A stretch of DNA of 64,000 bases from Phycisphaerales bacterium (GTDB lineage: Bacteria > Planctomycetota > Phycisphaerae > Phycisphaerales > UBA1924), in assembly GCA_035627955.1 (NCBI GenBank), contig DASPKU010000006.1, positions 248,001 through 312,000 on the forward strand, read 5' to 3'. Positions 4,201 to 9,846 of this stretch are shown in pieces. The translations under genes were made by a program, and so were the position numbers. The notes beneath the pieces are model-generated. The model was not told the DNA's origin and did not search any database. It was given only the letters and a program-made list of their open reading frames with translations. Every line of letters begins with the position of its first letter. The stretch's first letter is position 1.

Positions 4201-4469
4201 GGAATCCCCCGGTGAAAGTTCGGGGAAGTTACCGGCCGCTCGTGAGCCTGTCAAACCTGCAACTGGCGTAGTTTGCGGAGTTTGCAATCCGGTAATGGCG
4301 ACATTGTTGCAAGCTGCGGCGATCGACCCCTTGATCAGCGCCGTCGCCACTCTCGTCCGCTAAAACCGCCCGCGCCGCCGCCCCACCGCACCCAGCGCAA
4401 AAACCGGCCCGAACAAACGCCTCTGAACGGGCACTTTTCCTCGGAGAAATGCAGCGTGATTCCGAGACC

Positions 4470-4637
4470 ACGGAGCATGACGCCGGCATCACAGGGCATT
4501 CCGGGCCCACCACCGAGCATGATGCCGGCACCACGGAGCATGATGGGTGCACTACGGAGCATGACGCAGGCAGCACGGGGCGTGATGCGGGCGGCAGGGG
4601 GTGTGGTGGCGGCGGCAGGGGGCGCGATGGCGATAGA
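4470..4637. repeat. 21-bp tandem repeat, eight units
   Basis: Eight consecutive 21-nt units with consensus close to ACGGAGCATGATGCCGGCACC, degrading toward 4637 into GGC-rich units. The period is a multiple of three, so one plus frame reads a TTEHDAG-like heptad and one minus frame reads a GIMLRGA-like heptad. The gap 4201-4657 otherwise holds no convincing gene. Confidence 0.85.
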
Positions 4638-4657: not shown

Positions 4658-5788
4658 TCATTCGGATGCAACCGGCGGCCGACGAGGAGCCGAGATCCGA
4701 ATCCCTTTCGGCACGTCGAAGGGATAGGTGTCAGGCTCACGAAGACCCTTCACGAATGGGTCGCATAGGTTGATGTCAGGGAAAATCGGGCATCCACCCA
4801 TGCAGGAATGTGCGTTCGCGCATCCGTTGCACCGCCCCTTGGTGAGCTTCTCTCGCACGCCAGCGAATGCGGTGTGCGTTTGCCAAATCGACTGCAGATT
4901 CGTGTCAGTCACCGGAACGCCGTGCCAACTACCCACCATGAAGGAGCACGGGTAGGCCTTCATCTCCTCGGACACGAACATCGAAAAGCGCCCCGCCTCA
5001 CACGCTTCGAACGTAGTTGGAGAGATTGCCGTGTGCCATGCCAATCCAGCCACCATGCAACTGTCAAACCCGATACGGAAGGGCAACCCTGGAGAGGTCG
5101 CCGAGGCGTAAAACGATTTAAGTCGCTCCGCCCCGACAGCCCGTGTGAGACCGGTCTGATCGTTCACGCGAGTGACCGGCTTGAAGTTCAGAAACACCAA
5201 GGCGTTGATGCCATGGAGAAAGCTAGGTGGGTCTCGGAGCCACGCCTCTGCCATTGCGAAGCTGTCATTGCTCAATACAAAGTGAACATTGGCGGCGATC
5301 CCATTCGCCTTCAACAACTGCAGGGCGGCTTCGAACTCCTCCCAGGGCTCATAGGCGCTTACCGCAACGGCACCGCAGAACCTCTTAGTCGCCTCAAGTA
5401 CCTCTGGCGTCAAACCTCTGCCATTCGTGGTATAGGACGGAACAATGCCCATCGACCGAGTAGTTCGAAGAATCTCGGCAAAATCGGGATGCTGGGTAGG
5501 GTTCCCACCACCGATAGCCACTTGGAGCACATCCATTGAGGCCGCCTGCCTAATCAGGGCAGTGTAGTCGGACAAGCGCATATGCACGCCTCTGGGGGTT
5601 GACCCTCGGTAGCAAAATGAGCATCCCTTGTCACACCAGTTAGTGATCGAGATGTCCATCAACTCGGGCCCGTGTCGCGACCACAACGGCTCAGCAGAGC
5701 CCGGGTCTTCGACTCGAGCAAAGAACCCAGTTCTCGGGGAGAACATGGTGGAGTAACCCTGAGACGAGTAATGCCGGATCACTAACAT
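4658..5788 (-). CDS. Radical SAM/SPASM domain protein
   Basis: 376 aa from ATG at 5788. This start has AGGA seven bases upstream; an overlapping GTG at 5803 is the alternative. The radical SAM cluster motif CxxxCxxC is Cys52/56/59 (WCDKGCSFCY). GGGNPTQHPD matches the GGEP-type SAM-binding motif. A C-terminal Cys-rich region (CEAGRFSMF, YPCSFM, then CNGCANAHSCMGGCP) is SPASM/twitch-like and would bind auxiliary Fe-S clusters. SPASM enzymes commonly modify peptides or proteins. It is the last gene of an overlapping operon and directly follows the small FVSNSSS protein, which is therefore a plausible substrate (inference). GC content is visibly lower than in the surrounding genes. Confidence 0.88.
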   Translation of the reverse strand: MLVIRHYSSQGYSTMFSPRTGFFARVEDPGSAEPLWSRHGPELMDISITNWCDKGCSFCYRGSTPRGVHMRLSDYTALIRQAASMDVLQVAIGGGNPTQHPDFAEILRTTRSMGIVPSYTTNGRGLTPEVLEATKRFCGAVAVSAYEPWEEFEAALQLLKANGIAANVHFVLSNDSFAMAEAWLRDPPSFLHGINALVFLNFKPVTRVNDQTGLTRAVGAERLKSFYASATSPGLPFRIGFDSCMVAGLAWHTAISPTTFEACEAGRFSMFVSEEMKAYPCSFMVGSWHGVPVTDTNLQSIWQTHTAFAGVREKLTKGRCNGCANAHSCMGGCPIFPDINLCDPFVKGLREPDTYPFDVPKGIRISAPRRPPVASE

Positions 5789-5796
5789 ATTGTGTC

Positions 5797-6201
5797 CTAC
5801 CACGTGCAGTTGAGCGCGTTGATGTACAATCCATCGTCTTCAAGTTCAAAGCTGTCCATGCACAGGAATGCCTCCGTGGCCTCCCCATCGCTTCCGAGCC
5901 GGCCAACCCGAACCTGGTAGCCCTGCTTGAGAGCTTCTTCGACCTTTGCCACAACTTCCTTCGAAAAGCGTTCACCGACGCCCGCGAGGACACCCTCGGC
6001 TGACTCAACTTTGTAGCGGGCGCTAGCAAGGCTTGAGTTTGTATCTAAGGTCTCGAAGAACCCCTCGACAACACCCCAGAGCGGAGAGCCTTTCGGCACT
6101 CCCATGAGCGCGCCAAGTCGTTCAACACTCCATCCCTGCTTAAGGATGATAATGAACGAGGTGGACGAACTGTTCGAGACGAAGTCACTCCGAATCTTCA
6201 T
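5797..6201 (-). CDS. Small protein with N-terminal MKIRSDFVSNSSSTSFII motif
   Basis: 134 aa from ATG at 6201, with AGAGGA nine bases upstream; an in-frame TTG at 6207 is less likely. The first 18 residues, MKIRSDFVSNSSSTSFII, match a pattern (M-K-x-R-x-D-F-V-x-N-S-S-S-x-S-F) that I recall at the N-terminus of many small uncharacterised bacterial and phage proteins. The rest is a mixed alpha/beta globular sequence with an acidic C-terminal part (SFELEDDGLYINALNCTW). The start overlaps the end of the upstream gene by 17 nt, and the stop lies 8 nt before the radical SAM start, so translation is probably coupled. Function unknown; possibly the substrate of the radical SAM enzyme. Confidence 0.8.
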   Translation of the reverse strand: MKIRSDFVSNSSSTSFIIILKQGWSVERLGALMGVPKGSPLWGVVEGFFETLDTNSSLASARYKVESAEGVLAGVGERFSKEVVAKVEEALKQGYQVRVGRLGSDGEATEAFLCMDSFELEDDGLYINALNCTW

Positions 6202-6643
6202 CTTCAATCATCCTCTGTGCGTCAGCCAGCCGTTCGAGCATGAACCACCCATCGCTCTTCTGCAACCATTCGATGAAACCGTATCCGCCTCCGAGTGAGC
6301 CATCGCAAACACCCAGTGTCCTAGTTTGGCTCAGGAGCTCGTAGACCCTTCGGATCAGCGCATCGTCGAATCCGTGCTTGCTGTAGAGAAAGTCACCGAA
6401 GGACTTATACTCGGCCGAATAGAACCGCTCATAGTGGGCCAGAAGATCGATCCGATGCGCAAAGAGTCCGTACCACACTCTCCGAACGAGCTCGGCCCCC
6501 ATCGTTCCTTTTTTGACCTTTGCGCGGGTGTACAGGTCATCAAGTGATAGGCCTAACGGTGCGACGGTCACTACTGCCGCATACGAAGCAAAATGGATCC
6601 AAACTCCGTCCATCGCTGTGGCCTTCCGCCGAGCTCTGCCCAT
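6185..6643 (-). CDS. Hypothetical protein in the STAND/radical-SAM operon
   Basis: 152 aa from ATG at 6643, preceded by GAGG; a second ATG at 6613 would give 142 aa. The product is mostly helical, with FASYAAVVTVAPLGLSLDD, YERFYSAEYKSFGDFLYSKHGFDD and a Gly-rich GVCDGSLGGGYGFIEWLQKSD segment. It has no signal peptide or membrane segment. The start overlaps the 3' end of the STAND gene and the stop overlaps the next gene, so all four genes form one coupled operon. I do not recognise a family. Confidence 0.7.
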   Translation of the reverse strand: MGRARRKATAMDGVWIHFASYAAVVTVAPLGLSLDDLYTRAKVKKGTMGAELVRRVWYGLFAHRIDLLAHYERFYSAEYKSFGDFLYSKHGFDDALIRRVYELLSQTRTLGVCDGSLGGGYGFIEWLQKSDGWFMLERLADAQRMIEDEDSE

Positions 6644-9600
6644 AGTGCCTCAACCTGCTTCTTATCAAGCGTAAGATGGTTCCGATCCGCCAACTCAACA
6701 AGCGCCTTCTTTCGTGCCGACTCCGTCGATTTGGCCTCGTCGTCATTCAGGCCCTTGGTGTTCGCCGGCCGTTGTGCCAGCTCCTTGATTGGGGGGATGA
6801 TCTTGCCGCCCTCGATCGCCCAGCGCCCAACTAAACCCCATGACGCTGCCTGAGCGTACCCCGGACCTTGTGTCAGGAACTGCGCCATAATCGACTGTGT
6901 GAAGAGCGAGCAACGGCGCCTCAACTTCGCGATCGCATCTGAAGCCGGACCCCAGCTCTTACTCCCGGGAATCGTCAGCATGTATAGAAAGAGCTGGGCT
7001 TCGCCAGGGTCTTCGCGCAATTCGTCGCAGCTACGAGATGTCAAGTCAGCCGCGATTCGATCGAGCAGTACTTCGAACCCTGAACGTTCGTGAGAACGAT
7101 ACCTCCAATGATCATCGCCGAATGCAGCCCGAATAGTTTGCTTGAACTGATCTGGTGTGAGCTGATCGAGTGTCGGGAAAAGGGAGGACAAGTTCAAGTG
7201 CGGGAAACGCTTGACTGATGCCCTTCCGAGAAGCCCGTAAATCACTCGACGCGCTTCATGTGCTCCCCTCATGAAGTAGTCAGCAACCTTGGCAACATCC
7301 TCAGGAACAACTGCGTCGTCTTCCAGGTCGAAGATGCAATCCATGTAGACTTCATCAAAGCCCGGGAAAGAGGAGAGCGCACCCAAGAGGGTGGCCGCGT
7401 TTTCTCGTCTCCCAATCAAAAAAAGGAAGCGTCCTGCTCCCTCGGCGCACGTGGAATGCCGGTCTAGAACGGCTGTGAGTAGCTCGCTGGTCCTTTGCGG
7501 GTCCTGCTTCCAAAGCGGACCGGCTAGGTGCTCGGCAAGGCAGTAATCACGCATTTCATCAAACGTAAACGCGATAACGTCCCCGTCACCCGAAAGGGGC
7601 GATGCGGGCGCAAGGTCCCGTCGCAGTACGAGCTCTTCTTGAAGCAGCAACTCCAAGCCATCGAGGTGTTCCTGCGGAAGGGCGTCGAGCGGCACACTAG
7701 TGAAGTCCCTGCGATCGAGCATCGCGCTGACAATCGATACGACGGCACGTCGTAGTCGCGAAGCTGCCGAGGCCGCATGTGCTGGGACGAGGGATTCTGC
7801 CGCGTCCAGCTTGCGGCGGAAGAATTCCCTGTACAGGCGCTCTTTGTGCAGGTGAGTGAGGGAGGGATGTGGTGCGGAGCGGCATCCGGGAACCGGAGCA
7901 TAAGCCTCGCAATAGGTACGTAACAGAAGTGGATTCGACCGCAGTTCCTCAAACACGCCTCCTGCTACGCTTTCGATCTCGATGCCGAAGTACCGGAAAT
8001 ACCGCCACACCATGTCTTTCGACTGCTGTGCCGACAGCTCCCTTACTGGTTCGGACAACCTAGCCACCTGAGTGGACGTCTCGGCGTACGTGACAAGGTT
8101 CGAAAAGCGCGCGTCAAAGTACTCCGCACGACAACTCAGCAGGACTCGCACCCATTCGCTGGCGTTCAGTCGTACGAGCATCTGCTCGATCGCTGGGGCG
8201 AGCAACGCAAGGTCTGAATGCTCGTTCAGGCCGTCGATCATGATGAGTAACGGTTTGCCTGAGTCCCTCGCGAGTGACTCCAGATCGGCCCAAACGCGAG
8301 CGGACTCATTCTGAGCCCTGAGGCCGAAGACGGATTGCAGTAAGAACACCTCCAGTGGACCGCCTGTCCACGCTCTCAGGTCGCGTCCCGTGAAATGAAA
8401 GTACGCGATCCCTCGCGGCTGTAAGACGCGTTCAGCGAGATCGCACAAAAAGCTGGTCTTGCCGCGGCCTGCGTTGGCAGTCAAGAAGACGACGCGTGCC
8501 TGAGAGAACGCGAGCCACTCCTGCTGTTCTTCGACCCAGTTGCGAGCGGGGTACGCGTCATCGCGGAGCCTGTACCGGATCTCGTCGAAGCGGTAACGTG
8601 TCTTCTGGGGGATTTTGGTCTCAAGTCCGGTTTGCCCCTCTGCGAAACACTCCTCGAGAATCGCTCGGACCTGTTGCAAACGAAAGTCGATTGCTGAAGC
8701 GAGCGGGGCTACTCCGTCCAGAGTGCGCGGTGTCTGCAAGTGTGGATCGATCAAGGCGCCGACGGGCGAGAGTCCTACTTGGCGCAGTCGCCTATCCACC
8801 TCGGTAAGCACTTGTCGGTTAAGTGCCTCCACCAGCACCTCTAGCCCCCACCGTGGGTCAGTGAAGGCGCGGCATAAATCCTTCTGGCGTGGTGACTCGG
8901 CGAACAACTGTGGGATGTACTTCTTCGAACGGATTTCTCTTTGCAGCTGCCCGTGCTGGTGCGACTTGAGTTGAAGCGTGACCGAGCTGGCGATAGCCGC
9001 CGCTTCTGAGGGGAGTTGCAACTCGAGACCTGGCGGTTGCCGCTCTTTGATCATTGGAATCGTGATGAGACCGCCAGCCTTTGCCACCTCAGCGCATCGC
9101 GTGTAGATCCAGTCCCGGAGCACCGACGGCGCGATGGACGAACCTCTTGGGAGCAAGGACCTCGCTTTATCCAAGTCGTTGGCTTCGTCGGCCCCCCCCG
9201 TGATGCCGTGGTCAAAGTGAATGATGACTAGAGACCGGAGAAAACTCCAAACGGTCCGTTGCGCAGGGATGCGCTTTGTGAACTTCCTAATAAAGTGAGT
9301 GACGAGTTCGACGTGCGCGTGTGTCGATCTGAACTTCTGTACCTGTCGAAAGAAAGAGGTCGCGTCGTGTTCGCGCGCCCAGAGTGTCATTTCCCGAAAG
9401 TGTCGAACACTGTCAGACGCCGAACCTACGTCGATCGCGAAACCGATCCGATCAACCCCGGTGTGGAAGCTTGGGGAGTTGAACTCGCTCCAGCATTGGC
9501 GCAGGCCGGACTCGAAGGCGAGATTGCTCTTGGTGAGCGAGAGCCCATGTTTGACCTGCAGGAAGAGACGTTCGCGACGGTTCTGATCCTGAGTATGAAC

Positions 9601-9846
9601 GTGGATGTCATCAACGAAGTGGCCTTGGTTACGGCGCTGAAGGCCAACAGCGACGATCAGCCCGCCTTCGGGGCCGCGAGGTGTTGCGGCTGCAAGCATG
9701 TGAAGGACGTACGACGTAGCCACGGACAGTTCGAAGACAGTGCCACCGCCGCCTGTGGCGAAGGGGCTCACAGGCGAGGGAGCAGCTTGAGGGGTCTTGG
9801 CCCGCGTCGCTCTGGTGTGTGCCTTGCCGGCCATCTTGGGGAGCAT
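6571..9846 (-). CDS. STAND NTPase with N-terminal DUF4297/Cap4-like nuclease domain, candidate antiphage protein
   Basis: About 1091 aa from ATG at 9846; TTG 9873 and ATG 9834 are alternatives with no decisive ribosome binding site. Residues about 30-200 look like a DUF4297/Cap4-type PD-(D/E)xK nuclease: TGGGGTVFE, FVDDIHVH and LFLQVKHG supply the E, D and QxK residues. A linker holds KYIPQLFAES. The NTPase follows, with Walker A ANAGRGKTS near 460, Walker B LLIMIDGLNEH near 540 and a following LLSCRAEYFD strand, as in NACHT/STAND proteins. The remaining ~500 residues are helical and would be the sensor. This domain order is known in Avs-type antiphage STAND proteins, which sense viral proteins and cut DNA. 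Lower GC than flanks suggests acquisition. Confidence 0.8.
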   Translation of the reverse strand: MLPKMAGKAHTRATRAKTPQAAPSPVSPFATGGGGTVFELSVATSYVLHMLAAATPRGPEGGLIVAVGLQRRNQGHFVDDIHVHTQDQNRRERLFLQVKHGLSLTKSNLAFESGLRQCWSEFNSPSFHTGVDRIGFAIDVGSASDSVRHFREMTLWAREHDATSFFRQVQKFRSTHAHVELVTHFIRKFTKRIPAQRTVWSFLRSLVIIHFDHGITGGADEANDLDKARSLLPRGSSIAPSVLRDWIYTRCAEVAKAGGLITIPMIKERQPPGLELQLPSEAAAIASSVTLQLKSHQHGQLQREIRSKKYIPQLFAESPRQKDLCRAFTDPRWGLEVLVEALNRQVLTEVDRRLRQVGLSPVGALIDPHLQTPRTLDGVAPLASAIDFRLQQVRAILEECFAEGQTGLETKIPQKTRYRFDEIRYRLRDDAYPARNWVEEQQEWLAFSQARVVFLTANAGRGKTSFLCDLAERVLQPRGIAYFHFTGRDLRAWTGGPLEVFLLQSVFGLRAQNESARVWADLESLARDSGKPLLIMIDGLNEHSDLALLAPAIEQMLVRLNASEWVRVLLSCRAEYFDARFSNLVTYAETSTQVARLSEPVRELSAQQSKDMVWRYFRYFGIEIESVAGGVFEELRSNPLLLRTYCEAYAPVPGCRSAPHPSLTHLHKERLYREFFRRKLDAAESLVPAHAASAASRLRRAVVSIVSAMLDRRDFTSVPLDALPQEHLDGLELLLQEELVLRRDLAPASPLSGDGDVIAFTFDEMRDYCLAEHLAGPLWKQDPQRTSELLTAVLDRHSTCAEGAGRFLFLIGRRENAATLLGALSSFPGFDEVYMDCIFDLEDDAVVPEDVAKVADYFMRGAHEARRVIYGLLGRASVKRFPHLNLSSLFPTLDQLTPDQFKQTIRAAFGDDHWRYRSHERSGFEVLLDRIAADLTSRSCDELREDPGEAQLFLYMLTIPGSKSWGPASDAIAKLRRRCSLFTQSIMAQFLTQGPGYAQAASWGLVGRWAIEGGKIIPPIKELAQRPANTKGLNDDEAKSTESARKKALVELADRNHLTLDKKQVEALWAELGGRPQRWTEFGSILLRMRQ

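Follow-up and report, generated by a model that had tools for sequence, protein, structure and literature searches.

What could bind a nuclease-STAND protein, two small proteins and a radical SAM enzyme together in one block of genes? Such a block occurs in the window, the whole stretch of 64,000 nucleotides analysed here. Its four genes lie on the minus strand in the order STAND, P2, P3, radical SAM, with short overlaps or gaps between them (Table 1). An earlier note had described four genes of low GC, and coordinates, strand and composition were all confirmed, with GC of 0.56-0.60 within the cassette against 0.63-0.70 outside. That note had also called the genes overlapping. This holds for STAND and P2, which overlaps the STAND stop, and for P2 and P3, which starts 17 nt within P2. 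Between P3 and the radical SAM gene there is an overlap, of 7 nt, only if the latter begins at the GTG at 5803, and the ATG at 5788, a conserved start, is the more likely one. The window's own flanks of the cassette showed no resemblance to defence genes. Directly downstream of the radical SAM gene is a degenerate 21/42-bp tandem repeat (window 4453-4632).

Table 1. Features of the four-gene cassette, in window coordinates.
Feature	Position	Strand	Basis
STAND NTPase with N-terminal Cap4/DUF4297-type nuclease (predicted), 1091 aa	6571-9846	-	overlapping ORFs
Predicted PD-(D/E)XK nuclease domain, residues 23-297	8956-9780	-	AF2 model, Foldseek/VIA
STAND NTPase core with Walker A (GRGKT) and Walker B (MIDGLNE)	7867-8511	-	profile matches, motifs
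P2, small untagged protein, 152 aa, start possibly at 6613	6185-6643	-	kept in all complete cassettes
P3, FVSNSSS-tagged protein, 134 aa, predicted enzyme substrate	5797-6201	-	35 aligned P3
N-terminal tag of P3, MKIRSDFVSNSSSTSF	6154-6201	-	shared with viral proteins; variant tracks enzyme clade
C-terminal Trp codon of P3, invariant	5800-5802	-	35/35 cassette P3
Radical SAM/SPASM enzyme, start GTG 5803 or ATG 5788	4658-5803	-	Pfam Radical_SAM, E 5e-15
CxxxCxxC radical SAM motif, C57, C61, C64	5612-5635	-	motif; invariant in enzyme alignment
SPASM cysteines C268, C286, C325, C328, C334, C338, C347	4763-5002	-	motif and TIGR04085

Relatives of the cassette were collected in two surveys. A tblastn survey of plasmids with P3 returned Rhizobium, Agrobacterium and Rhodobacter records carrying all four genes, and the alignment of the enzyme, run against genome contigs, returned 32 loci. 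The peptide patterns of the genome survey are typical of cassette enzymes, and lone bacterial relatives may escape them. One locus cut by a contig end (L043) was set aside from the count of gene order. All 35 other loci long enough to judge (31 genome and 4 plasmid) carry these four genes, with their order unchanged. The earlier note had named recurrence of the STAND gene without these neighbours as one observation that would speak against its proposal; the four-gene set was instead intact throughout. At one locus (L019) a contig end cuts the STAND gene. At two others (L011:4993-7606 and L036:5443-8257) the STAND gene lies in two frames, with P2, P3 and the enzyme still present.

Walker A was located at residues 460-465 of the STAND protein, and Walker B at D538. 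The core shows similarity to Avs2 (NCBIfam, E 1.6e-11; PADLOC, E 2.6e-21 over residues 413-778), and the family profile matches the Avs2 structure 9o4e (E 8.5e-12). The protein as a whole falls outside Avs2, scoring 42.9 bits against a curated cut-off of 1000, and is shorter after the NTPase core. Searches by sequence were unproductive for the N-terminus: it and its homologues matched no Pfam or NCBIfam family above cut-off, and its profile found nothing useful in the PDB. Structure was therefore needed to place the domain. An AF2 model built from seven sequences (pLDDT 84, pTM 0.85) matched Cap4 6wan (E 4e-7; Z 13.3 by VIA) and Avs3 (Z 12.2), as well as Lamassu LmuA and HerA-DUF nucleases (Foldseek/VIA), with a Foldseek prob of 1.00 to both Cap4 and LmuA. 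The nuclease residues E39, D79/D80 and QVK 97-99 are present. Judged by modelled fold and motif alone, membership of the Cap4/DUF4297 nucleases is supported. The layout read earlier from the sequence, a Cap4/DUF4297-like nuclease followed by a STAND NTPase, is supported, and structure prediction, which had been suggested as a check on it, favours the nuclease domain.

What had been missed is that the effector is exchanged between cassettes. The KYIP...STAND core is the constant part of these proteins, and only the N-terminal effector differs. A Cap4-type nuclease N-terminus occurs in the window and at one other locus (L018). Most Pseudomonadota cassettes, and L023, have SMEK_N instead, whose profile matches the Mrr domain of the short-pAgo effector 26bh (E 3e-31); SMEK has been described as a nuclease of short-pAgo systems (PMC10810196). 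The N-terminus is transglutaminase-like and similar to the antiphage protein ProA at L015, and is NNH5 at L022. At L026, L035, L039 and L042 it consists of hydrophobic stretches that, read by eye, resemble membrane segments, and at L041 the effector is nearly absent. The effector classes overall were Cap4-type nuclease, SMEK/Mrr nuclease, transglutaminase-like, helical and membrane. Variable effectors on a constant core are the typical pattern of Avs and NLR-like defence. Together with both Walker motifs and the relation to Avs, this swappable N-terminus supports a reading of the protein as Avs-like. In Avs2 and other Avs proteins, too, an exchangeable N-terminal effector (in Avs3, a nuclease like Cap4) precedes the STAND NTPase, but the cassette differs from them in that P2, P3 and the radical SAM gene are obligatory. 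An alpha/beta hydrolase-like gene (MRDIIVFLPGITGS) was observed immediately upstream of the cassette whose effector is transglutaminase-like (L015:3518-4951).

The earlier assignment of the last gene to the radical SAM/SPASM enzymes was well founded. The protein matches Pfam Radical_SAM (PF04055, E 5e-15) and exceeds the TIGR04085 SPASM cut-off (32.5 bits against 27), with the full cysteine sets: CxxxCxxC at residues 57-64 and the seven cysteines of a SPASM pattern between residues 268 and 347. Its best family match is MftC (E 9e-17), well under the equivalog cut-offs, and the nearest solved structures are SuiB 5v1q and PqqE 6c8v. It shares fold, CxxxCxxC and SPASM cysteines with MftC, SuiB and PqqE, but forms a separate clade and has the FVSNSSS tag as its partner. 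In the manner of a peptide maturase, it lies next to the gene of a predicted dedicated substrate, as indicated by adjacency and by the co-variation of tag and enzyme described below. A prokaryotic viperin was also considered. The PADLOC pVip match (42 bits) reflects the shared radical SAM core only, and this candidate was rejected because a SPASM domain is present and the enzyme clusters with those linked to the tag.

The tag itself extends far beyond the cassette. The earlier note had seen FVSNSSS in P3, though not its spread through viruses that carry the same enzyme family. A DNA pattern for the tag matched at least 120 viral stretches. Among the matches listed, at least 162 tagged viral proteins were counted in 78 loci, often as several tandem genes; Phe occupies residue 7 in 158 of the 162, and the protein bodies are largely unrelated, falling into 53 body clusters. 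Both classes of Ser codon, TCN and AGY, occur at each Ser position of the tag, which places the constraint on the protein level. Chance low complexity was rejected as a source of FVSNSSS: besides the mixed Ser codons, the reversed pattern gave zero matches, and the only match in 294 genomes of the window's phylum was the window's own P3. In a 1.4 Mb genome of the searched class (L284), an open frame of 409 aa carries the tag FVTNSSSSSF at its N-terminus; a full P3 match is absent from that genome.

In 30 of the 78 short stretches, homologues of the window's enzyme (E down to 4e-78) adjoin the tagged genes and without exception share their strand. Such homologues occur in 14 of 17 whole viral contigs with tagged genes, in one as a weak partial match only. 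Starting from the viral enzyme, tagged genes were present at 64 of 80 loci (213 tagged genes, all co-oriented, median distance 285 bp), and a reversed-sequence control at these loci gave none. Tagged proteins were the sole widely recurrent neighbour of the viral enzyme, found at 59 loci against at most six for any untagged family. The enzyme is carried by 173 sequenced phages, mostly T4-like phages of enterobacteria (RB43, RB16, Lw1, KP15); in the coliphages RB16 and Lw1 it is annotated 'putative radical SAM protein'. Phages chosen for the enzyme alone also had tagged genes: two each in RB16 and Lw1, and five in Vibrio phage D479. The two RB16 genes, RB16p106 and RB16p111, flank the large RB16p109, annotated as VWFA-like (L197:2111-6501; RB16 66610-71000), in a region about 20 kb from the RB16 enzyme gene.

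Tag and enzyme vary together. In the enzyme tree, cassette enzymes form a single clade (SH-aLRT 98). Viral enzymes form a main group and a smaller group, the latter sister to the cassette clade (SH-aLRT 87). Tag variants follow this division, with D6/T9 accompanying the smaller viral enzyme group and G6/S9 the other loci. In the smaller group, D6 was present at 14 loci and absent from none, against 2 present and 61 absent elsewhere (p 1e-13); T9 was present at 13 and absent from 1, against 0 and 63. D6 is also found in 33 of 35 cassette P3 proteins. This co-variation comes from related sequences, but it recurs in four homologous body families that span both enzyme groups, where the tag is always the version of the local enzyme. 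Parallel tag change in unrelated proteins on one enzyme branch is expected if the enzyme recognises the tag. Pairing of the enzyme with FVSNSSS proteins as substrates is thus well supported at the level of sequence, and it is very probable that the enzyme reads the tag or modifies it. One viral radical SAM gene (L096:8588-10343, minus strand) seems to be broken at CxxxCxxC by an intein, with CLGNCSFCSPAGTKV at one end and GILTHNCYKSN at the other, and shows a gap between two open frames.

Chemical modification of P3 by the enzyme would follow the same pairing. No feature but the tag is shared by all substrates, and the tag must therefore be either the modification site or a recognition element. 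FxSxx-type motifs carry Phe crosslinks, and MftC acts on a C-terminal Tyr. By analogy, two candidate sites are plausible: the tag, at F7-x-S9/T9, recalling the F-x-S of FxSxx peptides, and the invariant C-terminal Trp tail, recalling MftC. Among the matches listed, that Trp ends only 2 of about 150 viral tagged proteins, compared with every cassette P3.

Across the 35 aligned P3 proteins, M1, F7, N10, S11, S12, S13, T14, F16, C114 and W134 are invariant. The AF2 model predicts that P3, about 130 aa long, is folded; it is alpha/beta (pLDDT 85), with low confidence in the first ten residues and the C-terminal tail. A fold search with this model in the PDB and BFVD gave no usable match, which does not in itself show a new fold, and the P3 profile had no match in the PDB. 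Pfam and NCBIfam name neither P2 nor P3; PHROG 7397, of unknown function, matches P3 mainly in the tag region. P2 is present at the same place in all complete cassettes and has no tag. Comparison of the two profiles by hhalign gave 96.6 %, E 5e-10 and a score of 59.6, against at most 17 for column-shuffled profiles and at most 20 for pieces of unrelated alignments, and the relation persisted after removal of the tag. On this profile evidence, P2 is an untagged distant paralogue of P3, a relation that the earlier note, which had suggested a small-protein partner, had not recognised. The body of P3, tag aside, is related to one viral tagged subfamily (five matches, E 3e-7 to 7e-5), with 24.3 bits against 10.5 for the best shuffled decoy. 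Relatives of P2 or of the STAND protein were not seen in the viral loci.

With moderate confidence, we read these genes as a mobile defence cassette in which the enzyme matures P3, P3 and P2 partner the STAND protein, and the effector acts on infection. The radical SAM/SPASM enzyme would recognise the N-terminal FVSNSSS tag of P3 and modify the protein, either in the tag (e.g. at F7-V8-S9) or at the C-terminal Trp tail. Mature P3 and untagged P2 would jointly partner the Avs2-like STAND protein in a sensing or licensing role, and may either license or trigger it. Infection would change the state of this partner, and the STAND NTPase would then oligomerise. Judging by analogy with its domain families, the exchangeable N-terminal domain, here a Cap4-type nuclease that would cut DNA, may kill or arrest the cell or destroy phage DNA. 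We infer the defence role, the chemistry and the direction of regulation. The earlier suggestion of a modified small protein as partner of the STAND protein is supported at this level.

The viral relatives allow other readings. P3 might be the host's version of a tagged protein from phages, with the STAND protein watching for effects of phage tagged proteins or radical SAM enzymes on the host pair, such as competition for the enzyme. Such a guard would detect phages that carry the tag-enzyme system. The homology of the P3 body to viral tagged proteins, the sister position of the cassette enzyme and the frequency of the system in phages are all consistent with this, but common ancestry could mean just a shared tool, and we regard the guard as possible though unlikely. 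Only tentatively, too, would we see tag and enzyme as a phage modification system for arrays of unrelated accessory proteins, captured once by bacteria, as a tagged and an untagged copy, to form an NLR-like sensor of phages with the same chemistry.

The small FxSxx proteins raise a further alternative. They occur with SPASM radical SAM enzymes and AP-ATPases in predicted conflict systems (VMAP ternary; Kaur et al. 2020, PMC7159879). Like the cassette, these systems couple a STAND-class NTPase with a SPASM radical SAM enzyme and a small protein, and the FxSxx peptides beside AP-ATPases have been proposed to act as toxin or alarm signal (Kaur et al. 2020, PMC7159879). Modified P3 would, by this comparison, itself be the effector, with the STAND protein merely controlling its release. 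However, in most cassettes the STAND protein has its own effector-type N-terminal domain, P3, at about 130 aa, is a predicted folded protein, and no exporter is present, nor is there a peptidase, such as RiPP leader cleavage would call for. We consider this reading improbable. The FxSxx/VMAP systems have a cleaved C-terminal FxSxx peptide, a zincin metallopeptidase and a MoxR-vWA core, whereas the cassette has an N-terminal tag on a folded protein, adds P2, and is without peptidase, MoxR or vWA; P3 ends in NALNCTW. The cassette thus lies outside the FxSxx/VMAP class.

Carriers of the cassette were found in Pseudomonadota, Bacteroidota, Verrucomicrobiota, Cyanobacteriota, Nitrospirota, Thermodesulfobacteriota, Campylobacterota, Acidobacteriota and Omnitrophota. 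With the window's organism, about ten phyla are represented. Within this range the cassette is rare and patchy, with one partial match in 385 genomes of one class, the centre genome aside, and one enzyme copy per carrier genome. One cassette is on a contig labelled Micrarchaeota (L034), and its enzyme is very close to Thermodesulfobacteriota cassette enzymes; misbinning or a recent transfer probably explains this. All cassette genes co-diverge (Mantel r 0.85-0.96, 0/999 permutations), and therefore travel together. Across cassettes, mean identity was highest in the enzyme (0.61), followed by P3 (0.43), the STAND core (0.33) and P2 (0.31). Sequence relationships indicate that the enzyme-tag pair was probably taken once from the larger phage-borne system and then spread between phyla. 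Some cassette flanks match PADLOC models for MADS, PARIS, Septu, Mokosh and R-M, as raw matches with no background rate; these defence-type neighbours support a defence role but do not prove it.

The four plasmid matches examined are on large Agrobacterium, Rhizobium and Rhodobacter plasmids, as might be expected of a conflict between mobile elements (plasmid maintenance or exclusion) in place of phage defence. Yet several copies are on genome-assembly contigs of about 0.5-1.9 Mb, and the closest relatives of the STAND core and the effectors are antiphage proteins, so that we give a plasmid role little credence. That an ordinary Avs-like gene merely has an unrelated radical SAM operon behind it is already refuted by the survey: the fixed order across the surveyed loci and the co-divergence rule out chance association.

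We return to the defence cassette matured by its own enzyme, and to what in it is new. The FxSxx/AP-ATPase systems have already been described, and the principle of coupling therefore has a precedent. Radical SAM genes are also on record in Campylobacter phages CP220/CPt10 (PMC2853527). A literature search, with subscription papers and preprints mostly outside its reach, did not find the FVSNSSS tag, the enzyme family, the phage arrays or the cassette. Within it, work on radical SAM genes of T4-like phages gave no link to FVSNSSS proteins, a search on the letters of the tag yielded a single, unrelated paper, and a search on FxsB with cyclophane found nothing. Measured against that literature, the FVSNSSS tag, its enzyme family, the phage arrays and the cassette would be new, and the phage-wide tag system the most novel part. 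If true, the proposal would give a first handle on an N-terminal tag of hundreds of phage proteins without assigned function, those of laboratory coliphages included, and would predict the enzyme that modifies them. It would also describe an NLR-like bacterial immune receptor controlled via a radical-SAM-modified partner related to phage proteins, and would provide a testable example in which phages and a defence against them use the same chemical tool.
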